NCBI RefSeq assembly: GCF_006335015.1
Contig: NZ_VDGT01000003.1
Coordinates: 1-64,000, forward strand
DNA length: 64,000 nucleotides
Direction of reading: 5' to 3'
Source of the DNA: Streptomyces sedi
GTDB lineage: Bacteria > Actinomycetota > Actinomycetes > Streptomycetales > Streptomycetaceae
Shown: positions 9,449-41,410 of the stretch, in pieces
How the letters are laid out: each line of letters starts with the position of its first letter
Numbering within the stretch: position 1 is the stretch's first letter
Program-made: the position numbers and the translations under genes
Notes under the pieces: generated by a model
Told to the model about the DNA's origin: nothing
The model's database searches: none
Seen by the model: only the letters and a program-made list of their open reading frames with translations

Positions 9449-10093
9449 TCAGTCGACGGGGAACGGCAGGCCCGTGCCGCCGAGGCCGCAGTAGCCGCGG
9501 GGGTGGCGGTCGAGGTACTGCTGGTGCCGTTCCTCGGCCGGGTAGAACGGGAAGTCGGCCTCGGCGACGATCTCCGTGGTGACCGGGCCGTAGCCGGCGT
9601 CGGCGAGGATCCTCCGGTAGGTGTCGCGGGTCTCCTCGGCCGCCTCGCGCTGGGCGGGGGAGCGGTGGAAGACCAACGAGCGGCAGTGCGTGCCGATGTC
9701 GTTGCCCTGGCGCATTCCCTGCGTCGGGTCGTGGCCCTCCCAGAAGACCCGCAGCAGGGCGCGGTAGGAGACCCGGGCCGGGTCGAAGACCACCCGCACC
9801 GTCTCCGCGTGACCGGTGCGGCCGGTGGCGACCTCCTCCGAGATGGGGTGCGGCGTCGGCCCGCCCTGGAAGCCGGTCAGCGTGGTCCACACCCCCTCGG
9901 TGCGCCAGAAGCGCCGCTCGGCGCCCCAGAAGCAGCCGAGCGCGAACTCCGCGATCTCGCACTCCGCCGGGTACGGGCCGAGCAGCGGCGTGCCGAGCAC
10001 CCGGTGCCGTTCGGGAACGGAGTACATCCGCTCGGTGCGTCCCGGCAGCGCCTCCTCGGGCGTCGGCAGGCGGTCGGTGAGGTCGGTCAGCAT
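9449..10093 (-). CDS. msrA: Peptide-methionine (S)-S-oxide reductase MsrA
   Basis: A 214-residue enzyme with the active-site motif GCFWGAE around residue 54, GHAETVRVVFDP, and the YCGLGGTGL tail found in actinobacterial MsrA. It reduces methionine-S-sulfoxide in oxidised proteins using thioredoxin-type reductants in the cytoplasm. This copy is complete and separate from the msrA carrying the integrative element at 41 kb. The two proteins share the same layout, including the [11 protein letters not shown] segment, so they are paralogues. Oxidative-stress repair fits its position next to a Clp protease operon, but a shared regulon is not shown. Confidence 0.95.
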   Translation of the reverse strand: MLTDLTDRLPTPEEALPGRTERMYSVPERHRVLGTPLLGPYPAECEIAEFALGCFWGAERRFWRTEGVWTTLTGFQGGPTPHPISEEVATGRTGHAETVRVVFDPARVSYRALLRVFWEGHDPTQGMRQGNDIGTHCRSLVFHRSPAQREAAEETRDTYRRILADAGYGPVTTEIVAEADFPFYPAEERHQQYLDRHPRGYCGLGGTGLPFPVD

Positions 10094-24376: not shown

Positions 24377-24469
24377 TCAGGCCCGCGCCACGCCCACCGG
24401 GCAGGACAGACCCGTGCCGCCGAGCCCGCAGTAGCCGGCCGGGTTCTTGTCCAGATACTGCTGGTGGTA
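24377..24469 (-). pseudogene. msrA: Orphan 3' end of msrA left by element integration
   Basis: Read on the minus strand from 24469, the frame gives YHQQYLD, then [19 protein letters not shown] and a stop at 24377: the C-terminal 30 or so residues of MsrA. Immediately upstream the frame runs into a stop in element DNA. The rest of this gene is now at 40.8-41.4 kb, where the element supplies a replacement 3' end. The fragment has no start and is not expected to be functional. Confidence 0.9.
24456..24469. other. Left attachment-site core (attL)
   Basis: TACTGCTGGTGGTA, identical to 40830-40843 and lying within the msrA codons for YHQQY. Sequence left of it is chromosomal msrA; sequence right of it belongs to the element and leads within 42 bp to the integrase start, the usual place for attP. 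Confidence 0.85.
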
Positions 24470-24510
24470 TCACTGCTCCAACAGCATATTTTCAGCCCGC
24501 AGGAGGAGCC

Positions 24511-25986
24511 GTGGTGGACCAGCCCTTACCCGTGATCTCGTACGCGCGGATCTCGTCGGACACCGAGAAGGACGAACACGGCGTCGAGGACCAGCACCGG
24601 ACCAACGCCGGCACCGCGCGGCGCCTCGGCTGGTCGGTCGTCGCGGAGATCACCGACAACGACCTGTCGGCGGCCAAGGCGGGCGTCACGCGCGACGGAT
24701 TCGAGGCGATGGTGCGCGCGCTGCGAGCCGGGCGGCTCCCGGACGGGGGCGCGGTGCGCGGCGCGGTGGTCGTGGCGGACGACCGGCTGGTGCGCCGGGC
24801 CGGTGACTACGAACGGTTCGTGGACGCGCTCACCTACGACGACGGCCGTGTCTACGCCGACGCGCGGGGCCCGAAGAACCTCTACAGCGAGGACGTCGAG
24901 GCCATGGGCCTGTTCGGCGTCGTGATCTCCAAGATCGAGGTCCGCAAGATCCAGCGCAGGTTGCGCGACAACCACCGCTCCCGCGCCGAGCGCGGCGTAC
25001 CGGTCGGCGGGACACGCCCGTTCGGCTGGAACGAGGACAAGCGCACACTCAACGAGGCGGAGGCGCCGTACGTGCGCCAGGCGATCCGGGACCTTCCCCA
25101 GGGGAAGTCGCTCACCGCCATCTGCGCCGAGTGGCGCGCGGCCGGACTCAGAACGTCACTCGGCAACGAGTGGACGCTGCGGTCCCTCAAGCTGACCCTC
25201 TGGAACCCCCGGGTGTGCGGCTGGCGCAACTACCGGGGCGAGATCCTGCGGGACGAGGAAGGCGCTCCCGTCGTCGGCCAGTGGGAGACCATCGTGACCC
25301 CGGCGGAGTGGGAGGCCGTGGACGCCGTCTTCCAGGCCCGCAGGGGCCGTAGCGTCGGCACCGGCCAGGAGATCGGCGACGTTCTTCCCGAGAACCACAG
25401 CCAGGCGCGGCACCTGCTGACGGGCGTGCTGCGGTGCGGACGCGTCCACGACGGGGAGATGTGCGGCACCGCGCTCCGGGTGTCCCGTCACAAGGACTGC
25501 AAGTCGCACCTGTACGTCTGCCCCTCGAAGGCCGCCGGAGGATGCGGCGGACTCGGACGCCGGGGCGACCTTGTCGAGGAGTACGTCACCGAGGCCGTGC
25601 TGGCCCGCTTGGAGGAGCGGCAGGCGCGGGCCGCGAGCGCGGAGCCCTGGGACGGGGAGGAGCGGCTGGCGCGCCTGGTGGCCAAGCGCTCCCGGCTGTC
25701 GGAGGAGTGGCAGAACGACGCGATCAGCGACGACGTCTACTTCCCCGGGGTGAAGAAGATCGAGGCCCAACTCAAGGAGCTACGAGCGGAACGGCACCGC
25801 CGCCAGGCCATGGCCGCGCGGGCGGGGGAGACGGAGGACGTGCGGAAACGCTGGAAGGGGCTGCATGTCTCGCAGCGCCGCGCGCTGATCTTCGAGGCCC
25901 TGCACGCGGTGATCGTCCACCCGGCGGGCAAGGGGCGGAAGCCGTTCAACCCCGATCTTCTCGTTCCGGTGTGGAAGGAGGAGTGA
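24511..25986 (+). CDS. int: Large serine recombinase (site-specific integrase)
   Basis: A 491-residue serine integrase. The catalytic N-terminal domain starts VISYARISSDTEKDEHG, with the nucleophilic Ser in ARISSD. A recombinase domain follows (VPVGGTRPFGWNEDKRTL), then a zinc-ribbon region with Cys residues (LRCGRVHDGEMCG, YVCPSKAAGGCGG) and a C-terminal coiled coil near residues 385-440. It joins attP to the chromosomal attB by cutting at the 2-bp centre of the core. The GTG at 24511 follows AGGAGGAGCC. The attL core lies 42 bp upstream. The sixth codon is TTA (24526), so full expression may need the bldA tRNA. Confidence 0.94.
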   Translation: MVDQPLPVISYARISSDTEKDEHGVEDQHRTNAGTARRLGWSVVAEITDNDLSAAKAGVTRDGFEAMVRALRAGRLPDGGAVRGAVVVADDRLVRRAGDYERFVDALTYDDGRVYADARGPKNLYSEDVEAMGLFGVVISKIEVRKIQRRLRDNHRSRAERGVPVGGTRPFGWNEDKRTLNEAEAPYVRQAIRDLPQGKSLTAICAEWRAAGLRTSLGNEWTLRSLKLTLWNPRVCGWRNYRGEILRDEEGAPVVGQWETIVTPAEWEAVDAVFQARRGRSVGTGQEIGDVLPENHSQARHLLTGVLRCGRVHDGEMCGTALRVSRHKDCKSHLYVCPSKAAGGCGGLGRRGDLVEEYVTEAVLARLEERQARAASAEPWDGEERLARLVAKRSRLSEEWQNDAISDDVYFPGVKKIEAQLKELRAERHRRQAMAARAGETEDVRKRWKGLHVSQRRALIFEALHAVIVHPAGKGRKPFNPDLLVPVWKEE

Positions 25987-27781: not shown

Positions 27782-27976
27782 TCAGGTCTGGGCGAAGCCG
27801 CTGAACAGCCACTCGACGCTGACGAGCAGGGCGGGCCCGATGGGCGTCAGGGCGAGGTGGAACCCGAAGAGGGCGATCAGGGCCGCCTCCCAGCCGCGCA
27901 CGGACCGGCCGCGCACCAGCAGGAAGGTCATGGCGCCGAGGAGAACGACGAGCGGAATACTCAGGGCCGAGGTCAC
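27782..27976 (-). CDS. Small membrane protein, Spd-like
   Basis: A 64-residue protein with two hydrophobic segments (IPLVVLLGAMTFLLV and ALIALFGFHLALTPIGPALLV, here split at the limits of each span). It overlaps the tra stop by 4 bp (ATGA), so it is translationally coupled. In pSAM2-type elements such small membrane proteins help the plasmid spread within recipient mycelium. The family was not identified by name. Confidence 0.7.
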   Translation of the reverse strand: MTSALSIPLVVLLGAMTFLLVRGRSVRGWEAALIALFGFHLALTPIGPALLVSVEWLFSGFAQT

Positions 27977-29274
27977 GACTCCTCACCCGCCTCCACCGCC
28001 GTCTGAAGGGCGGGAAGGCTCGGGGTCGCGCACGCGTGGCGATGCGCGGTCTCCCGTGCGGCGTCGGGCTTCGTGAGGTGGGAACGGCCGCGGACCCAGC
28101 CGCCGGAGTCGGCCGCCAGGACGGCGACGCCCTGTTCGTGGGTGCCGATGGACTGGGCGACGGCGGCGGCGTCCTTGTTCAGGTCGCCCAGGGCCATCTC
28201 CGCCGTGCCGGGGTCGTTGACCCGGTGGCAGACGCGCCCGGCGAGCTGGGCGCGGAGCGCGGTGACCCCGGGGCCGAGGTCGGAGCCGACGCGCTGACCG
28301 GCCACCACCAGGTGCACGCCGAGGGCGGCGCCGAGTTGGGCCAGCCGCAGGAGGCTGGTCGAGCACTGCTCAGCCTCGGCACGGTCGGCGCGGCTGCCGT
28401 TGGTGAGATACAGCTCCGCCAACTCGTCCACCAGGACCACGATGGGGACGGGGCGTTCCTTCTCCGGCAGCTCCCAGACCGATCGGGCGCCGGCGGCGCG
28501 GCAGGCCCGCATCCGGTCGTGGACCTCGGCGACGAGCGCCGCCAGGACGTCCACGGCCTCCCGTCGGTTGCTCGCCAGCGTGGTGAACCGTTCGCGGAAC
28601 AGGCCGAGTTCCATTCCGCCCTTGCAGTCGATGCCGACCAGGGCGACGGGTTGTGGGGCGAGCTGGGACACGAGGCGGGCCAGCAGCGTGGACTTGCCGG
28701 AACGGGTCGCGCCGACGATCAGCCAGTGCGGCACCCGCCGGAAGTCCATGACCCAGTCGCGGCCGGTCTCCAGGACGCCGAGCACGGCGGTGAGCAGCGC
28801 CGCCGACTCCCGGGCGCCGTCCCGTGGTTCGGCCAGCGGATCGAACGCCGTGGCCGTGATCACCACGAGCCCGCGTTGCGGGGAGACGACCCGCACGGCG
28901 TGCGCCCGCCAGGCGTGGGCCAACGCGTCGGCGGCGTCCAGAAACGGCGCCGGGGTCTGCCCGGGACGCAGCCGCACGGTCAGCCGAAGCCCGCCGGGCA
29001 CGGGACGCGGCAGGCCGGCCCGGGGCGCGAGGCCGCGTAACGCCTCACCGCGCACGACGAGTTCGCCCAGGACGCGGCGGGTCGGTTGGTAGGAGACGGT
29101 CAGGTCGTTGACCTGTGCGACCTTGCGCCAGGTCAGCAGGACGCGCGCCGCCATGAGCGGGTAGCCGGTCAGGTACCACCGCCAGGTGGGGTGCCGGAGC
29201 GTGAACTCACGGCCGACGACCGCGCACCAGGCCAGCACGGCCAGGACCAGGGCGAGCACGTGGGAGCCGTCCAT
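27973..29274 (-). CDS. FtsK/SpoIIIE-type conjugative DNA translocase (Tra)
   Basis: A 433-residue protein with one N-terminal membrane span (LALVLAVLAWCAVVG) and a RecA-like motor domain. Walker A is GATRSGKST near residue 200 and Walker B is VVLVDELAEL near residue 285. In Streptomyces a single FtsK-like protein pumps double-stranded DNA between hyphae after recognising short repeats. It is flanked by a 112-residue gene upstream (1-bp overlap) and a Spd-like gene downstream (4-bp overlap), forming one operon. It is shorter than pTra proteins of free plasmids but normal for TraSA of integrative elements. Confidence 0.92.
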   Translation of the reverse strand: MDGSHVLALVLAVLAWCAVVGREFTLRHPTWRWYLTGYPLMAARVLLTWRKVAQVNDLTVSYQPTRRVLGELVVRGEALRGLAPRAGLPRPVPGGLRLTVRLRPGQTPAPFLDAADALAHAWRAHAVRVVSPQRGLVVITATAFDPLAEPRDGARESAALLTAVLGVLETGRDWVMDFRRVPHWLIVGATRSGKSTLLARLVSQLAPQPVALVGIDCKGGMELGLFRERFTTLASNRREAVDVLAALVAEVHDRMRACRAAGARSVWELPEKERPVPIVVLVDELAELYLTNGSRADRAEAEQCSTSLLRLAQLGAALGVHLVVAGQRVGSDLGPGVTALRAQLAGRVCHRVNDPGTAEMALGDLNKDAAAVAQSIGTHEQGVAVLAADSGGWVRGRSHLTKPDAARETAHRHACATPSLPALQTAVEAGEES

Positions 29275-29776: not shown

Positions 29777-30547
29777 ATGGGAGAGATCCAGCGCCCCGGA
29801 GCGCTGTACCAGCAGGTCGCAGCCGAGATCCGAAGCGGCATCGCGGCTGGTGAGTACCCACCGGGAGCGCTACTCCCCTCGGAAGCCCAGCTCATGGAGC
29901 GCTACCAGGTCAGCCGCCCGACAGTCCGCAAGGCCGTGGACCGCCTACGGTCGGAAGGGCTGATCGATGTCGTCCACGGCAAGGGCAGCTTCGTCCGCTC
30001 CCTCCCCACCCCATCGGTCACGATCGACCGCACCATCACCCGCGAGGGCGACACCTTCCGCACCGGCCTGTCCGACTGGGAGGAAGTCGAGCCCCCGACG
30101 GTCACGCGTGGGCACACGACGGCGACCACCGGGCCGCTGCTCGGCTTGGACGAGGGCGAGGCGGTCTTCATCGTTGACCGCCTCCTCGCCGAACCCTCCA
30201 CGGGCACCCGCGCCATGCACCGGATGGTGATCCCGTTGGCGACGGCGGCCGAGGTCGAGGAGTTGGAGCACCCGGACATCAGCCCGGACCAGGTCTATGC
30301 GGCTCTGGCAAAAGCCGGGTACCACCTCACGTGGCGAGAGACCGTCAGTGCCCGGATGCCACTTCCCGATGAACGTGTGGCACTTGCTATTCCCGACGCC
30401 GTTCCGATGCTTCAAGCGGTTCGTGTGACTCGTTCCACCGATGGTGCGCATTTGATTCAGGAAGTATGTTCTGTGGATGGGGATCGCGCTCGTGTAGCAT
30501 TTTTTATCGACGTAGAGGCGTTCGAAAAGGAGCATTCTCCCGGCTAG
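29777..30547 (+). CDS. GntR/HutC-family regulator, KorSA-like
   Basis: A 256-residue protein. The N-terminal winged helix covers about 8-75 (ALYQQVAAEIRSGIAAGEYPPG, shown here over its first two helices, and SRPTVRKAVDRLRSEG). The C-terminal UTRA ligand domain covers about 95-250. In pSAM2, KorSA of this family represses transfer-activation genes and keeps the element integrated. Its divergent position from the transfer operon fits this. GAAGGGAAGAGGGCC lies before the ATG. Toward the 3' end base composition falls, including an AT-rich stretch before 30547. Confidence 0.88.
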   Translation: MGEIQRPGALYQQVAAEIRSGIAAGEYPPGALLPSEAQLMERYQVSRPTVRKAVDRLRSEGLIDVVHGKGSFVRSLPTPSVTIDRTITREGDTFRTGLSDWEEVEPPTVTRGHTTATTGPLLGLDEGEAVFIVDRLLAEPSTGTRAMHRMVIPLATAAEVEELEHPDISPDQVYAALAKAGYHLTWRETVSARMPLPDERVALAIPDAVPMLQAVRVTRSTDGAHLIQEVCSVDGDRARVAFFIDVEAFEKEHSPG

Positions 30548-34678: not shown

Positions 34679-35596
34679 CTACCCCGGCTGCCAGTTCCGG
34701 GGCGCGTCGTCGTCCCGCAGCGAGGCGATCCGCCGTTCGTACTCGGCTGCCACGGCCGCACTCTCGCCGACGTTCTGCATGAGCCAGGTCGTCATGTGGA
34801 ACTCCTGGATGCCCCGCAGCACCGAGAACCCCTCCCAGTCGCCCAGGTCCCGCCCGTACGCGGCCACGAAGTCGGCGTACTGCTCGCGGGACTGCCAACC
34901 GAGGCTGTGGTGTTCGGTAGCGGTGACCATCAGGTCCCACTCGGGGTGGTCGAAGCTGAAGTTCTCGAAGTCGATCAGCAACACCGTGCCCGAGGTGTCC
35001 ACCATGAGGTTCTGCACATGGGCGTCCCCGTGCACCGGGCCCTTCCGCGAGGTGAACCGCAACCCGGCCAACCCCTCCCGCAACTCCCGCCCCCGGGCCC
35101 GCAGAAACTCCCGGTCGTCCTCAGGTATCCCGGTCACCCGCTCCACCCGCAGATCGGTACGCCCGAACGCCGGGTACGCAGCCAGTTCGAGAACATCTGG
35201 CGGCGTCAGCGCGTGCAGATCCCGCAGTACCCCGCCCAACTCCCTGTAGGTGGCCTTCCGATCCCCCTCCCGGATCAGATGCCAGAACGTCACCGGATGC
35301 CCGTCCACCACAACCGGCTGCTCCACGTCCTCCACCACCCGAGCCGCCGGGAACCCCTCCCGCGCCAACCACCGCGACACCCCCACCTCGGTCCGCACCG
35401 ACCCCAGGTAGTCAACCGACCGAGCCACCCGCACGATCACCGGATGCGCCGCCAACCGAAACAACGCGTTCTCCCCGAACCGCACCAGCTCGGCCCCGGC
35501 CCCGTCGAGCCCCACCGCCCTGCAAGCGGCTTGAGTTACCCGCTCCGCACCTGCGGACGAGAACCCGACGGACTGCCCAGTCTCGGCAGACCTCAT
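34679..35596 (-). CDS. Aminoglycoside phosphotransferase-fold kinase (APH family)
   Basis: A 305-residue kinase. The ATP-lobe start shows ELVRFGENALFRL, the catalytic loop is PVHGDAHVQNLMV with the Asp of HGD, and the metal-binding motif is LLIDFENFSFDHPEWD. APH-fold enzymes phosphorylate antibiotics, choline, homoserine or other small molecules; the substrate here is unknown and a resistance role is not implied by the fold alone. It starts at the ATG at 35596 and is convergent with the XRE/TPR gene, with only 5 bp between stops. It may protect or modify a metabolite as cargo of the element. Confidence 0.85.
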   Translation of the reverse strand: MRSAETGQSVGFSSAGAERVTQAACRAVGLDGAGAELVRFGENALFRLAAHPVIVRVARSVDYLGSVRTEVGVSRWLAREGFPAARVVEDVEQPVVVDGHPVTFWHLIREGDRKATYRELGGVLRDLHALTPPDVLELAAYPAFGRTDLRVERVTGIPEDDREFLRARGRELREGLAGLRFTSRKGPVHGDAHVQNLMVDTSGTVLLIDFENFSFDHPEWDLMVTATEHHSLGWQSREQYADFVAAYGRDLGDWEGFSVLRGIQEFHMTTWLMQNVGESAAVAAEYERRIASLRDDDAPRNWQPG

Positions 35597-36133
35597 GCCT
35601 AACCAACTCCCTCGAACGGCGGAGACCATCACGCGCCCCGAGCACTTTTCCGGTCGCGCACCAAGCACTAGAAACGACCGTACCCAGTGCGCTGAGGGCG
35701 GACCCTGTGCGCAGGCTTTGAGTCTGCGGTGCATCAAGAGGCCGGGGATATCGTTGACCGAGGGTTGGGGCACGGCTCAAGTCGCAGGTTGCCGCATTGA
35801 AGCACGGGTTGCACGCCGTGACGCGGAGCTCGCCAACCTCGCTGCCTTCAAGACGCTGGCGGTCTCCCGGCTGGCCGCCCAGCACCACGAGATCACGCGT
35901 CTGCGCGAGTAATCCCAAGCCGCAGGAAACGTCCATCGGCTGTCCAGCTCTCGCAAAGGAACTGCGCCGTACGGGGCGAGAGGTCGAAGCCGATCCACCC
36001 GATCGCGGCGAGGCTCGGTATTTATGCGCGGGCTTGGAGGGCCAATTTATTTTGAGAAGCGAAGCAGTCGATCTCGGAAATTTCGACCCGCCTCACTAAT
36101 ATTGCTGCGGATGGGCGTGGCCGCTAGCCCAAC
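35597..36133. other. Gene-poor stretch with a possible ORF remnant
   Basis: Only a short plus-strand frame near 35797-35912 resembles protein (ARVARRDAELANLAAFKTLA, a helical segment of the sort found at the end of recombinase-associated coiled-coil proteins). It lacks a start with a ribosome site and is probably a decayed fragment. From about 35.9 kb base composition becomes clearly poorer in GC, marking the start of the kinase/response-regulator segment. Confidence 0.45.
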
Positions 36134-37339
36134 TCAGAGAAACCATGGCGCCAGCGCTTGCCATGTAGTACCGGGGTGGTCGGCTGCTTTCATGTCTTCA
36201 CCGTCGTCGACCTTGGAGTACTGCAATAGAGAGTTAGAATCGAGATTACCCTTCGTGCGCTGCAGGCCGTCAAATTGGAAAATGCGCAATACTCCAGAAT
36301 GCTCTGCTTCTTGTGCAACAAACCAGGGGAATAGGTTAAGGGGTGCGGACTGCCCACTAAAAAGCATGACCTCGCCGGTGACTTGAGGGCGCTCAGTGCG
36401 CACTGTTCCGGGAATTGGTTTTCCGATCCCGGTGAAGGTGAGCACGCTGTGAGGGTATGTCGAGCCGTCATAAGTCATAGATGTGGGCACTGCCAGTGAA
36501 GAACGCCAAGACGAAGCCGCCCGGTGGGCAAAACTGCGGAGAAGGAGGTCAAGGCTGTCTCGGTGAGTGAGCGTCGCAGTAACCCTGCCATGAGCGATGC
36601 CATTGCGCAGTTCAATGAGGTCTTGCACCTGCTGTCGGTCAGCGCGTTCCGGCATGACCCAGGAGAGAATTTCGATGAAGGCGGAACAGCTGTCTGGGGT
36701 TTTTGCGAGGTCGTTGCAAAGGGTGAACCACGTGCCCATGCTGGGCTGCACGAGGCGCACTGGATTAACCCCGCGGAGTGAAGCTGGCGTGGGGTTACTC
36801 AGGCCCAGTGCGGCTGCGAAGCGGAGTACGGCCTCTAGCGTGTGCAGGCCTTCCAATACTTGTTTTTCCGGGTCGATGGTTCGCGCGTATCGGGCAAAGC
36901 GAGTAGCGAGGGGGCTGGGCAGGTGGGTGCTAGCGAGTTTAAGCGCTTGTTCTAGGCGGTCACGCAGGATACGAGCGCAGCGACCCAAAAGTTCCTCACC
37001 GGCGGCGTCCTTATCGATCCAGTCTGTCGATCCTAGCCGCAAGGCTTCAATGACCTGCTGTTTCGATCCTTCTCCGGAAAGCACCAGGGTCGGGATATTC
37101 CATCCGCCAAGGCTAAGTTGCCGCAGGAGCCATAGGCCGCCCCATTCTTCGGGCGGCATCTTCATATCTACGATGATAAGGTCGAAGGGGCGAGAGGCGG
37201 TCTCCGTCAGGGCGGCCTGGCCGTCTGGGGCGAAGCGAAGTTGTGCACCCGCTTTGCGTAACGGGCCGCACAGGGTTCGGGCCACGTCGGTCTGGTCGTC
37301 CGCCACAAGGATGCGCACCCCAGTCATCTCGTCGGTCAC
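36134..37339 (-). CDS. Response regulator with HEPN-like (Rx4H) output domain
   Basis: A 401-residue protein. Residues about 7-125 are a complete receiver: acidic pair in VADDQTD (14-15), phosphoacceptor Asp58 in IIVDMKMP, Ser88 in VLSGEG and Lys110 in WIDKDA. There is no DNA-binding domain. Residues about 150-275 are helical and contain ELRNGIAHG, where R245 and H250 give the Rx4H signature of HEPN RNases. About 285-400 is beta-rich (EVMLFSGQSAPLNLFPWF). I infer RNA cleavage as output, switched by phosphorylation; a non-catalytic HEPN is possible. The GTG at 37339 overlaps the kinase stop by 4 bp. Confidence 0.8.
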   Translation of the reverse strand: MTDEMTGVRILVADDQTDVARTLCGPLRKAGAQLRFAPDGQAALTETASRPFDLIIVDMKMPPEEWGGLWLLRQLSLGGWNIPTLVLSGEGSKQQVIEALRLGSTDWIDKDAAGEELLGRCARILRDRLEQALKLASTHLPSPLATRFARYARTIDPEKQVLEGLHTLEAVLRFAAALGLSNPTPASLRGVNPVRLVQPSMGTWFTLCNDLAKTPDSCSAFIEILSWVMPERADRQQVQDLIELRNGIAHGRVTATLTHRDSLDLLLRSFAHRAASSWRSSLAVPTSMTYDGSTYPHSVLTFTGIGKPIPGTVRTERPQVTGEVMLFSGQSAPLNLFPWFVAQEAEHSGVLRIFQFDGLQRTKGNLDSNSLLQYSKVDDGEDMKAADHPGTTWQALAPWFL

Positions 37340-40300
37340 AGGTGCTCCCGTATTGCTGTGGGGACGATCGGTAGGGTGACAAGCCAGGCGGTACCCGTCC
37401 CCGAGGGAGCCGGAACGTTCGCAAGTTCTCCACCGACGCGATTCAAGAGTGAGCGAACGCCCAGAAGGCCGAGGCCGTTGCCGCCAGGTTTGGTACTGCG
37501 CACGCGGTCTCCGGCTTCTAGGGCGGCAGAGACTTCGGGTGGTAGGCCCGGACCATCGTCGGTGATCTCGACGACAGCTTCATCGTCGTCTGCGGTCCAC
37601 TCCAGAGTGATCGACCCACCGTTACTGAGCGCTTCGATCGCGTTGCCCACGAGGTTGTCCAGGATGGCGGTCAGTCCGCCTTGGTCCAAGGCGACGCGAA
37701 CACTGTGCGTTGCATCGGGTATGGATAGGGAAATCCGGCCAGGGAGACGGGTGAGTACGCCGGCGGAATATTGGCGCAAGAAGGATCCGATATCCACGCT
37801 CTCAGTACCGGCGGGCCCTAGCAGTGAAGTGGTGGAGCGGAGCCGAGCGGTTAGAGCATGGGCCTGGTCCAGATGACGGCTCGCAGTGAGCTGTTGCTGG
37901 AGATGTGCGGTGCGCGTGTCGGCAGTAGTGCAACTGGCCAGTCTGGCAGCTACGAGCTGGTTCTTTAGGTCGTGCAGCAGGTCGGCCACCGCAGCCTGGT
38001 AGGGCAGGGCCGCTGGCTGCAATGCTGCTCTGGCCGCAGACGTAATGGGGCCTGCGGAGGCGGAGTCCGCTGTGGTGAAAATAGTGGCATCGATGCCGCA
38101 CTCGTTGGGCTCCAGGTTGGCCGTCCTGCACACGCCGGACCACAGTGTGCACATCCGTCTTACTGCAGTCAGGTCGAGCGGAGCGCCCGACAAAAAGCGA
38201 AGACGCAGCGGGTGAGAGCGCAAGACCTCGACTGACGCTTGAGTGTCGGGGGCAAGGACGGCTGAGACACCAGCGTCCAAGACAGCCCGTTCCCTTCCGG
38301 ACAAGCGCACGCTGGGAAGAAAGCGCGGGAGGAGAAGTCCATTTCGGTGCAGGAGTTGCCAGTCGTCGGCGAGCTCACGGAAGTCGACGCCGAGGTCATC
38401 ACTTCCCAGGCATCGGCAGAGTTCTGCCAGTTGCATGAGGCGCTGGAGCTGGTCGGTAGTTAGTGATTCCGGAGTGTGCAGCTGCTCCAAGATGTTCAGG
38501 AGAGCCGCCATTTCCGGCTCAACAGCATCCTGCGGGCTGCTAGCGAGTTCACTGGCTGCCCTGAAGGCATGCTCGACATTACTGACACTAGGATTGCATC
38601 CGGCGATTCCGGCAATGACCTCATCGGCTTCTTGAGCCCATGACAAGAGGTCCGCAGGGGAAGTCGCCCAGTGCATGCCGAATAATCTAGCGTCAACCCA
38701 GCGCCGAACTGGTGCTCGATTTGCTGCTAAGAACGCGACCTGATGAGCCAAAAGAAAGCGACCTACTGCGCGAAAGTTTTCGTTTTCGCTTCTGAGAGCT
38801 TTTGCAGGCTGGCGTTTGGCTAGCTGGTCAAGAATCTTCAGTACAGCCTGGGACGCTTGGTGTTTTGCCCTTGGCTTGCCAATTATCCACGTTCCTTCGA
38901 TACGCGTTTCGGCGCCCAGTTCTGCGCTACTCAGGATGGCGGTGGCGCGCTGCTGCATCGCATGCCCCGGGCCGGAAGAACGATAGCTGAAATCGAATGT
39001 CAGCTTCATGGCGGATGTCGCCCGCTGGAGAAGGGTGGTTGGATCCATCTCCCGTGGAATTTCCGAGGCAACCATTCGCCACACGGGTTCCCATTCTTGC
39101 GGCCACCGGGAGCGCAGCGATTCCGGAAAACCTGTGGCCGCGAATACCGCGCCGATCACAGCTTGGAACGCGTTGGAACCCGTCTCGGTCGAAATTCCTA
39201 TCGAAGCCTGACCTGCGCCCAACAACAGGCCGGATGCCAGGCCAGCGTGTCGGAAGGCATTTGCGTGAACCTCGTTTAGCGTGGTCAGGTTGGTAGCCGC
39301 GTCGGGAGGATTAAATAGCGCGTGGCGCGTTCCGGCTAGGGCATGTTCGTAATTCAATACTTGAGATCCTATAAACCCCAGGACCTGATTGTCCTGTTGG
39401 TGGCAGGCGCTCAGAACACCCCGGTGCTCGTATGCCCACGATGAATGGATCAGTGCCTGAGACAGCAACGGACAGGCAGTTGCTGGCAAAGAGAACAGCT
39501 TCTGTAGGCGACGTACCATCCGTGTATGCGCCTGATTGGTTGGGATCTCTGCGGCAGCGGCCCGGGCAACAGTGACCTTGCGCGTACTGAAGGCCTCTGG
39601 CACATGCCGCTGAAGGAAGTCCAGCGCAGCCTCCTGCGATGCGCGCTTCTTGTTTGGTCCAACACCAACACCGCAGCGCCCGCGATCGTCGGTTGCTACA
39701 GCGCGGAACGTTGCTCCGTGATCGGGACCTTCGCGCTGGTATTCATAAGATACCGAGCCATTCTTGAGTCGTTCTTGGAGCTCCGTCTTAGGATCTCCGA
39801 TACCCATGCTTTCATCCTCGACAGCGATCACTCGGCTAACCAGCGCTGCCGCAACTGCTGCCTCCCCAGCGAGACAAAGTACCCCGATGACCTGGTAGCA
39901 CAGGTCAGCCACCAACCGCTCAGGGAGTGGGCCGCCCTCAAGGCTTCGCCCGACCGAACACGATTGACTAATCCACTCCTGCTGCGTCGCCCAGGACTGA
40001 ACGCCTGACGGAACCCGGCTGACTTCCTTGCTCAGTGATCCCGCTGTCTGCGCCCCGCCGCGCCGGAAGATTTCAACCGCCGCCTGCTTCCTGACGTATT
40101 CCATGCCCAGTCTTTGGAGCGTGCTCAAGAGGCCGCGGGTAAGGCCGGGGAAAAGATCTTGATGCTCGTGCAGAAATGATCTATGGATTAGAGCCGCGCG
40201 CAGTCCGCCAAATAGTTCGGGCCCGGGATCCGACAATCCCAGAGAAAGTAAGGCATCTATCGCAATGTCTATCTTGCCTGGCCGACCCGCACCCAACCCC

Positions 40301-40356
40301 GCCAGTACGCCCAACCGGGGTTGGCCTGTTGGCGAGACAAAGTCGTCTGTACGCAT
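37336..40356 (-). CDS. Histidine kinase with tandem inactive RNase III-like and dsRNA-binding domains
   Basis: A protein of about 1006 residues. In order: RNase III-like fold (28-176), dsRNA-binding domain (188-252; GPDHGATFRAVA, GVGPNKKRASQEAAL), second RNase III-like fold (279-429), second dsRBD-like region (438-514), a helical linker, and a histidine kinase core with H795 in LLHDLKNQLV, N-box DNLVGNAIEAL, and ATP motifs DDGPGLP and GGNGLGL. The acidic RNase III residues are replaced (Ser78, Gln81, Met85, Tyr154; Gln324, Gly327, Ser331, Asn395, Gln398). It is soluble, with no membrane span. It probably senses structured RNA and phosphorylates the coupled regulator. TTA codons occur at 38683 and 38728. 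A GTG at 40383 is an alternative start. Confidence 0.85.
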   Translation of the reverse strand: MRTDDFVSPTGQPRLGVLAGLGAGRPGKIDIAIDALLSLGLSDPGPELFGGLRAALIHRSFLHEHQDLFPGLTRGLLSTLQRLGMEYVRKQAAVEIFRRGGAQTAGSLSKEVSRVPSGVQSWATQQEWISQSCSVGRSLEGGPLPERLVADLCYQVIGVLCLAGEAAVAAALVSRVIAVEDESMGIGDPKTELQERLKNGSVSYEYQREGPDHGATFRAVATDDRGRCGVGVGPNKKRASQEAALDFLQRHVPEAFSTRKVTVARAAAAEIPTNQAHTRMVRRLQKLFSLPATACPLLSQALIHSSWAYEHRGVLSACHQQDNQVLGFIGSQVLNYEHALAGTRHALFNPPDAATNLTTLNEVHANAFRHAGLASGLLLGAGQASIGISTETGSNAFQAVIGAVFAATGFPESLRSRWPQEWEPVWRMVASEIPREMDPTTLLQRATSAMKLTFDFSYRSSGPGHAMQQRATAILSSAELGAETRIEGTWIIGKPRAKHQASQAVLKILDQLAKRQPAKALRSENENFRAVGRFLLAHQVAFLAANRAPVRRWVDARLFGMHWATSPADLLSWAQEADEVIAGIAGCNPSVSNVEHAFRAASELASSPQDAVEPEMAALLNILEQLHTPESLTTDQLQRLMQLAELCRCLGSDDLGVDFRELADDWQLLHRNGLLLPRFLPSVRLSGRERAVLDAGVSAVLAPDTQASVEVLRSHPLRLRFLSGAPLDLTAVRRMCTLWSGVCRTANLEPNECGIDATIFTTADSASAGPITSAARAALQPAALPYQAAVADLLHDLKNQLVAARLASCTTADTRTAHLQQQLTASRHLDQAHALTARLRSTTSLLGPAGTESVDIGSFLRQYSAGVLTRLPGRISLSIPDATHSVRVALDQGGLTAILDNLVGNAIEALSNGGSITLEWTADDDEAVVEITDDGPGLPPEVSAALEAGDRVRSTKPGGNGLGLLGVRSLLNRVGGELANVPAPSGTGTAWLVTLPIVPTAIREHL

Positions 40357-40744
40357 CACCACGCGATGAAGCCCCCTCCGCACGCGTCGTCTGTGCCGCC
40401 CACGAGAGTCTAGCCGCGTCGGCTGGCCTCCGACCAGAGATCGCCGAGCTCCAGCGCGGCCGTCAAGCTGGGATTCCTACGTACGGCCTGTGTGGTCTGC
40501 GTCACGCCGACGCCCCCGAAAGTGACTGACGAACGCCGACACCCTCGGAGGGGTGCGGCGCGGCAACCCGCGCGCGTAAGTGGGCTTTGACGTTGGAGCC
40601 AGGTAGAGAGCACAAGAATGTTTCTTCTTGGATACGCGCCTGATGGTTGCGCGCCTGTCAGCCTCGCCGGCGATCCGCTCTTGCGAAAAGTGCTCGCCCC
40701 CGAGGCCAGTACACCCCGGGGGCAGTTGTTCTCGTCCGGCCAAC
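40357..40744. other. Right-end intergenic region of the element
   Basis: No convincing gene was found in these 390 bp. The region must hold the kinase promoter, which was not identified, and it abuts the element-supplied 3' end of msrA. A GC-rich hairpin-like stretch lies near 40695-40725. Confidence 0.5.
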
Positions 40745-41410
40745 TCACCGCTCCGCCGACGCCACCCCCACCGGGCAGCTCAGGCCGGTGCCGCCCAGGC
40801 CGCAGTACCCCGTCTTATTGCGGTCGAGGTACTGCTGGTGGTACCCCTCGGCCGCGTAGAACGGGCGGGGCTCGGCCGGGGCCAGTTCGGTGGTGATGGG
40901 GCCGTAGCCGGAGTCGGCCAGGACGCGCTGGTAGGCCTCGCGGGAACGTTCCGCCGTGTGCTGCTGCTCGGGGGAGTGGGTGTAGATCGCCGAGCGGTAC
41001 TGGGTGCCGACGTCGTTGCCCTGGCGCATCCCCTGCGTCGGGTCGTGGGACTCCCAGAAGACCCGCAGCAGCTCCTCGTAGGAGACCTTGGCCGGGTCGA
41101 AGACGACCCGCACCGCCTCGGTGTGCCCGGTCATGCCGCTGCACACCTCCTCGTAGGTGGGGTGCGCGGTGACGCCGCCCTGGTAGCCGACGAGGGTCGT
41201 CCAGACGCCGGGCGTCTGCCAGAAGCGCCGCTCAGCGCCCCAGAAGCAGCCGAGGCCGAAGTCGGCGACCTCAAGACCCTCCGGGTAGGGGCCGAGCAGC
41301 GGGTTGCCCAGGACGGTGTGGGTCGACGGCACGGCGAACGGGCGCTCCTCGCGGCCGGGGAGGGCCTCCTCGGCGGTGGGAAGCCGGTTCTTGAAGGTGG
41401 TGTACAGCAT
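40745..41410 (-). CDS. msrA: Peptide-methionine sulfoxide reductase MsrA, rebuilt by element integration
   Basis: A complete 221-residue MsrA with GCFWGAE near residue 58, [12 protein letters not shown] and [14 protein letters not shown] near the end. Coding sequence upstream of the 14-bp core at 40830-40843 is chromosomal. The last 28 or so codons (40745-40829) come from the element and replace the original 3' end, which is stranded at 24377-24469. Both ends encode nearly the same residues with different codons, so the enzyme should remain active. The ATG at 41410 follows GGAGATACGAGGAAC. Confidence 0.95.
40830..40843. other. Right attachment-site core (attR)
   Basis: TACTGCTGGTGGTA, identical to 24456-24469. 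Here it joins element DNA (left) to the 5' part of chromosomal msrA (right). Confidence 0.85.

Follow-up and report, generated by a model that had tools for sequence, protein, structure and literature searches.

A two-component system of Streptomyces sedi with a predicted Dicer-like, probably RNA-reading kinase devoid of cutting residues and a likely HEPN RNase as its regulator

Detocs, a two-component system that defends against phages, combines a sensor of the TPR type with a nucleoside-phosphorylase effector and has a third protein that consists of a receiver only. In eukaryotes, PKR is a kinase activated by double-stranded RNA (dsRNA), whose two dsRNA-binding domains (dsRBDs) drive a halt of the cell on viral dsRNA. 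The 'two-headed' RNase of Lyngbya unites HEPN, RNase III and dsRBD in one protein, with both RNase parts predicted to be active (PMC3710099), and in BREX loci a minimal histidine kinase occurs as a fusion with a Schlafen RNase (PMC12839542). Here, we analyze a stretch of 64,000 nucleotides from Streptomyces sedi (the window), in which two overlapping genes encode a histidine kinase and its response regulator. The kinase is predicted to be Dicer-like, appears to read RNA and has lost the residues for cutting it, while the regulator is likely to be a HEPN RNase; that the pair acts as a phage-triggered shutdown switch is, in our judgement, an even bet.

Like Detocs, the system couples a histidine kinase sensor to a receiver fused to a putatively toxic effector, and is found on mobile DNA. 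It differs in its Dicer-like RNA module, its overlapping unit of two genes and its HEPN-like effector: the input of the kinase consists of RNase III and dsRBD domains (Pfam), and the families listed for 73 regulators include no phosphorylase domain. With Detocs, phage defence by two-component systems is already known in itself, whereas no precedent was found for the receptor. With Dicer and Drosha, the kinase shares tandem RNase III folds that are predicted to pair in one chain, but it is without a helicase or PAZ domain (Pfam), has lost the acidic sites, is fused to a histidine kinase and has an extra dsRBD between the two folds. The likeness to PKR, two dsRBDs coupled to a kinase, is an analogy only, as PKR is a Ser/Thr kinase working through eIF2alpha and has no Dicer-like folds, whereas the window system consists of a histidine kinase and a receiver. 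The Lyngbya protein likewise joins HEPN to RNase III and dsRBD in a defence setting (PMC3710099); in the window, by contrast, the parts belong to two proteins, the RNase III is degenerate and a putative phosphorelay lies between them. RNase and histidine kinase domains in BREX-linked defence also characterize the Schlafen fusion, but its RNase has another fold, and RNase III, dsRBD and double-stranded RNA go unmentioned in the text of PMC12839542. The original prediction, made from the sequence of the window, knew of no described system of this architecture. In agreement, among the papers found in the literature searched, which holds few subscription papers, none describes, by its title, the opening of its abstract or, for PMC13092281, PMC8195603, PMC3710099, PMC12839542 and PMC7159879, passages of its text, a histidine kinase with RNase III or dsRBD input or a prokaryotic tandem RNase III receptor.

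The architecture of the kinase, an RNase III-like fold and a dsRBD occurring twice and then a histidine kinase (Table 1), is confirmed by Pfam domains and by profile matches of its homologues. Above the cut-offs, Pfam identifies dsrm (E 3.4e-9, residues 198–258), Ribonucleas_3_3 (E 1.3e-8, 306–420) and HATPase_c (E 7.8e-17, 900–1006); RNase III-like fold 1 and dsRBD 2 are not detected in this single-sequence scan. We built a 40-member profile from the window kinase and 39 of 66 homologues picked by eye for spread, those left aside being full-length, near-identical or short proteins and four kinase-core matches. Against solved structures, it matches the RNase III of M. tuberculosis (2a11, E 4.1e-13, profile 50–245) and of T. 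maritima (1o0w, E 1.5e-12, profile 276–448) and, at profile 447–516, a dsRBD of the 'Dosage compensation regulator' (5ztm, whole-chain E 5.7e-7). When the two halves of the window sensor are searched separately, each matches 2a11 (E 3.6e-5 and 3.3e-6). Within the alignment, dsrm is present in 40/40 and Ribonucleas_3_3 in 39/40 proteins (E <= 0.01), and 62 of the 66 homologous proteins (the window's own included) have a precomputed dsRBD or RNase III domain. The best VIA matches of the predicted kinase structure (mean pLDDT 83.2) are Dicers, and the two RNase III folds are predicted to pair within one chain in the manner of Dicer. Thus, the two RNase III-like folds, the two dsRBDs and the kinase core read by the original prediction are all present, and a structure prediction devoid of RNase III and dsRBD folds, which would have spoken against it, did not result. 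Its interpretation is supported in part: the Dicer-type arrangement of the folds (as predicted), the constant pairing with the regulator and the position at the end of an element have held, and rarity and plasmid carriage fit as well. What it missed is that both RNase III active sites are degenerate and that the regulator has a HEPN-like domain. No membrane segment is apparent by eye in the kinase sequence, and an in-frame ATG at 40356 (Met10), where the original prediction placed the end of the pair, is an equally possible start.

The host genome encodes one ordinary RNase III (L049), with the boxes NERLEFLGD and LADTLEA. Module 2 of the window kinase, aligned to L049, has NQVLGFIGS and SNAFQA at the NERLEFLGD/ADTLEA boxes. 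In all 40 proteins, the second Glu of module 2 is replaced by Gly or Ala, the Asp of NERLEFLGD by Ser or Ala, and the last Glu by Gln; at the next Asp position, 28 proteins have Asn, 7 have Asp and 5 have Thr. Module 1 shows more variation, and alignment of its first box requires a gap. Here, the second and the last Glu positions are never Glu, the Asp of NERLEFLGD is kept in 5/40 and the next Asp in 11/40. In module 1, 24 proteins have none of the four metal-site residues left and 16 have one, and in module 2 the corresponding numbers are 33 and 7, such that no module in the 40 proteins has more than one of these four acidic residues of RNase III catalysis. An active Dicer-like RNase was therefore rejected. 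The RNA contacts have fared differently. The Gly of GPxH is found in 40/40 proteins in both dsRBDs, the Pro in 38/40 and 39/40 (dsRBD 1 and dsRBD 2), the His in 39/40 and 38/40, and the first Lys of the lysine motif in 40/40 and 36/40; the second Lys of the KK motif is kept in 38/40 in dsRBD 1. Since the catalytic residues of RNase III are lost, the protein is probably a reader of RNA rather than a cutter, and the residue pattern is what we would expect of a protein that still reads dsRNA.

A receptor that binds without cutting can report the absence of RNA as well as its presence, and the same sequence evidence would suit a guard in which cellular structured RNA (tRNA, rRNA precursors) holds the kinase off until phage-driven RNA degradation frees it and HEPN fires. 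However, dsRBDs bind duplexes with little sequence preference, which favors a sensor of abundance, and such a guard seems unlikely. The Dicer-like module could also be a mere scaffold to which a protein of the phage binds, such as its dsRNA-binding protein or an inhibitor of RNase III, with RNA not being the signal. Some bacterial immunity proteins do sense proteins of phages (PMC11578894), but the scaffold is quite improbable given that the RNA contacts of both dsRBDs are mostly kept and the catalytic residues are not.

Downstream of the sensor half, the residues of the H-box, N, G1 and G2 motifs (H804, D805, K807, N808, N910, N914, D942, G944, G946, G968, G970 and G972) are invariant in 40/40 kinases. 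The regulator matches Response_reg in Pfam above the cut-off (E 1.7e-15, residues 10–119). Its alignment consists of the window regulator and 72 of 120 listed homologues (of 155), picked by eye for spread; Response_reg is present in 73/73, and the phospho-acceptor D58 and K110 are invariant in 73/73. Judged by these residues, both the kinase core and the receiver are complete. The regulator starts inside the stop of the kinase, the shared bases being GTGA, which agrees with the 4-bp coupling claimed originally. The same overlap of exactly 4 bases is found in 13/13 loci tested. In two of these, L013 and L074, the pairs are equally identical to the query and probably the same, so that the 13 loci amount to ~12 independent ones; the test left out L020, with a broken kinase and regulator, and the divergent L047, and L048 runs off its contig. 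Thus, the expected constant pairing with the regulator was found, and the contrary outcome, homologues only as core metabolic genes without it, was not. Distance matrices of kinase and regulator correlate with r 0.97 over 14 pairs, a value reached in 0/5000 permutations. The divergent pair of genome G432 (L047) keeps the gene order, with identities of 31% for the regulator, 27% for the sensor and 43% for the kinase core. The regulator is the only neighbour common to the kinase loci, although lone receivers were not specifically searched for. These comparisons of sequence show that kinase and regulator travel as one overlapping unit, and we infer phosphotransfer from kinase to regulator because of the 13/13 overlapping pairs and the r of 0.97. 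In Phytohabitans suffuscus (L020:10001-14623), the kinase and regulator genes are split into several frames, though they lie in a defence-rich stretch.

Residues ~157–277 of the regulator are likely to form a HEPN domain. The predicted structure (mean pLDDT 92.5) shows the receiver, helices between 110 and 277, and a β domain (281–376). R-x4-6-H is the motif of HEPN RNases, and R245 and H250 are two of just 14 columns invariant across the 73 regulator homologues; the spacing in homologue P0169 is R-x5-H. At E <= 1 and below their cut-offs, Pfam HEPN families match the motif region, with RiboL-PSP in 34/73 regulators, MAE_28990 in 11, Swt1 in 6 and Apea in 2. Twelve regulator fragments compared by hhalign with RiboL-PSP-type HEPN domains of other genomes gave a probability of 85 (E 6.6e-6; reversed control 0.3). 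This was a repeat with four good sequences; with three poor ones in the set (L055–L057, phmmer E 0.05–9.9), the probability was 61, and reversed and helical controls gave 0.1–1.3. No DNA-binding domain was found by Pfam in the window protein and the 73 homologues, and a transcription-factor regulator was rejected for this reason.

In the proposed switch, the two RNase III folds, paired in one chain as modeled, would form one dsRNA-binding valley flanked by the two dsRBDs. The trigger would be dsRNA or long structured RNA that accumulates during phage infection, either from overlapping convergent transcripts or as dsRNA spared by a swamped or blocked RNase III. RNA lying across the valley may alter the kinase dimer and lead to autophosphorylation on H804. 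The phosphate would then pass to D58, the receivers would dimerise and two HEPN domains would form one composite RNase site, which may cut host and/or phage RNA and so bring about dormancy or death before phage release. Receivers often dimerise upon phosphorylation. HEPN RNases typically act as dimers (PMC13092281), and together these two properties make the link from receiver dimerisation to HEPN activity attractive.

More broadly, there may be in Actinobacteria a family of Dicer-like dsRNA receptors without catalytic activity, one branch of which acts on a HEPN RNase through a phosphorelay; this would be the counterpart of PKR in bacteria and the first dsRNA-sensing two-component immune system. 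We hold this proposal tentatively, at slightly less than an even chance. If true, bacteria sense viral dsRNA via a Dicer-shaped, non-cutting receptor wired to a two-component relay, in parallel to PKR and Dicer immunity of animals. It would also mean a histidine kinase with a nucleic-acid input and an RNase switchable by phosphorylation, and bacterial dsRNA-based innate immunity would be directly testable with one operon.

The gene pair is rare. At E <= 1e-30, the kinase profile has matches in 11 of 394 genomes sampled from the family: the own genome encodes an intact kinase, G141 has a copy at the end of a contig that is divided between two frames, and the other nine encode kinase-less sisters. 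The regulator occurs in 3/394 genomes of the class (E <= 1e-25). A phylum-wide sample of 396 yielded the own genome, one sister and four kinase-core matches, and G432 alone matches among 22 genomes of its family. Many homologues are metagenomic proteins. The named hosts are actinobacterial (Streptomyces, Kitasatospora, Streptomonospora, Sphaerimonospora, Micromonospora, Amycolatopsis, Actinomadura, Actinokineospora and Phytohabitans), and the sole named source outside this group is a metagenome-assembled genome (MAG) labelled Acidobacteria (P0063/L019), whose protein has no kinase. Two Streptomyces plasmids carry the kinase-regulator pair, in one case between integrase genes and beside a CHAT-domain protein. 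The GC content of the two genes is 0.60 and 0.59, compared to 0.74 and 0.73 in the flanks of the window. Being rare, mobile and low in GC, the kinase was rejected as a core housekeeping gene; a phage gene was also rejected, as there are matches in 9 of 50,697 phage records and each of them is confined to the kinase core. The patchy occurrence and low GC, together with the lack of a detected DNA-binding domain, also make it highly improbable that this is a conventional two-component system for gene regulation, with an unusual input domain and an RNA- or protein-binding output, although the completeness of kinase and receiver would suit one.

The serine recombinase gene begins beside a displaced msrA 3′ end, and the element is inserted at the msrA 3′ end. 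From the displaced and the intact 3′ ends, the element is ~16.4 kb long and the gene pair is its right-hand cargo, which bears out the originally claimed place at the end of an integrative element. This place at the edge, and the three transfer/replication gene clusters and the GntR cluster that locus L009 has in common with the window's element, would fit a pair that serves the element's own life (copying, transfer or exclusion of rivals), triggered by RNA of its excised or incoming form, with the HEPN-like domain binding RNA and not cutting it. We consider this improbable: the pair is also found on large plasmids and at loci without such genes called, R-x4-H is invariant, as expected for a catalytic site, and sister modules lie in defence loci. 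Inside the element, an APH-type phosphotransferase gene (34679–35773) adjoins the regulator and has a weak, below-cut-off match to TCAD9, a conflict-system domain. A second gene that is msrA-like by sequence lies at 9449–10093, ~31 kb from the element-carrying one.

Table 1. Features of the kinase-regulator pair and of the element carrying it (window positions; residues refer to the encoded protein)
Feature	Position	Strand	Remarks
Kinase gene	37336..40383	-	1015 aa, GTG start
RNase III-like fold 1	39814..40290	-	residues ~32-190, catalytic residues lost
dsRBD 1	39610..39792	-	residues 198-258, GPDH and KK motifs kept
RNase III-like fold 2	39064..39534	-	residues ~284-440; NERLEFLGD -> NQVLGFIGS, ADTLEA -> SNAFQA
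dsRBD 2	38821..39045	-	residues ~447-521, GPxH kept
Helical linker and small alpha/beta part	38074..38808	-	residues ~526-770
Dimerisation/phosphotransfer helices	37819..38004	-	residues ~794-855, with H804 of HDLKN (codon 37974-37972)
HATPase_c catalytic domain	37366..37686	-	residues 900-1006
Response regulator gene	36134..37339	-	401 aa, GTG start, 4-bp overlap with kinase
Receiver domain	36983..37312	-	residues 10-119
HEPN-like helical domain	36509..36871	-	residues ~157-277
R245-x4-H250 motif (RNGIAH)	36590..36607	-	R and H invariant in 73/73
C-terminal beta domain of regulator	36212..36499	-	residues 281-376
Displaced msrA 3′ end, left element end	24381..24474	.	77% identical to 40755-40848
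Serine recombinase of integrative element	24511..25986	+	
FtsK/SpoIIIE-type transfer protein of element	27973..29274	-	
GntR-type regulator of element	29777..30547	+	
3′ end of intact msrA, right element end	40755..40848	.	372 bp from kinase start; msrA = 40745-41410

PADLOC models (E <= 1e-15) number 70 for the 15 kinase loci (108 neighbours), 155 for the 13 sister loci (100 neighbours) and 8 for random chromosomal stretches (94 genes); these are counts of models, not genes, as one gene is often matched by many models. The kinase-locus neighbours are 108 of 114 called (six in L074 that repeat L013 were left out, and the window's own were excluded), the sister-locus neighbours are 99 called and the partner in L019, and the control comprises 94 of 188 genes from 8 of 16 random stretches on four chromosomes. 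Gene calls in the neighbour loci are crude. The defence genes of L020 encode DrmB, DrmC, a GmrSD/Orf5-type protein and a type I methyltransferase, and L047 has NucC near the kinase. Of G432 and the genomes from which L069 and L014 come, G432 has NucC, near the kinase, and there is no NucC match in the eleven genomes behind L008–L013, L015–L018 and L020. One TRIP13 match among the kinase-locus neighbours was not traced to a locus. The 108 neighbours include six Phage_integrase and five DDE_Tnp_1 proteins, and the context of the remaining kinase loci is mobile rather than defence-rich.

Several observations weigh against the proposed switch. Known defence genes were traced near just 2/15 kinase loci scanned (L020 and L047). 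Ten large neighbours from five kinase loci gave matches just for the four in L020. Mobile elements carry many non-defence genes, and the neighbourhood control is chromosomal, not mobile, DNA. PADLOC has no match for the kinase at E <= 0.01, for which reason a PADLOC-listed defence protein was rejected. For the sensor, the second Lys of the KK motif in dsRBD 2 is mostly lost (Lys in 1/40), and no Pfam family was found for residues ~526–770, which are unexplained. For the regulator, all Pfam HEPN matches are below the cut-offs. The hhalign comparison with Swt1-type HEPN is weak (probability 3.5), with the RiboL-PSP-type and Swt1-type sets, both real HEPN, giving only 1.3 to 2.6 against each other. 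A profile search of the PDB with the HEPN region returned just two primase chains (E 1). In the best 50 rows of Foldseek and VIA, the whole regulator finds response regulators, chiefly through the receiver, and these rows are uninformative for residues 130–401, and the β domain (281–376) is unexplained, with no relative found.

The defence link is much stronger for the kinase-less sisters than for the kinase. Loci L038–L045 and L070–L073 encode such sisters with an equally degenerate double RNase III/dsRBD module, and in module 2 Gln takes the place of the last catalytic Glu in 14/14 (13 sisters and L047). Taken together, the neighbourhoods of the sisters abound in BREX, type III restriction-modification (R-M), Argonaute, DISARM and DUF262 genes; among the best 25 of the 155 models are BrxC, PglW, Argonaute, Hma, type III R-M, DrmC, DrmD and Cas3. 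Three sisters are encoded on annotated plasmids: a BREX operon comes after the first, genes for a DNA methylase/DEAD-box helicase pair and a DUF262 protein come after the second, and the third has a type ISP enzyme nearby. One sister used as the query returned 76 proteins, itself included, the named ones being mostly from Streptomyces. These data suggest that the kinase-less sisters are an unnamed, defence-associated family and belong to a wider receptor family.

In the MAG labelled Acidobacteria (L019:477-7215), a 639-aa double RNase III-like protein directly follows, and overlaps, a 1610-aa TPR/WD40 protein, which is another possible partner of the module. A Rhodococcus plasmid sister (L073:9172-10731), annotated with 519 aa, seemingly consists of just the second RNase III-like fold and a dsRBD.
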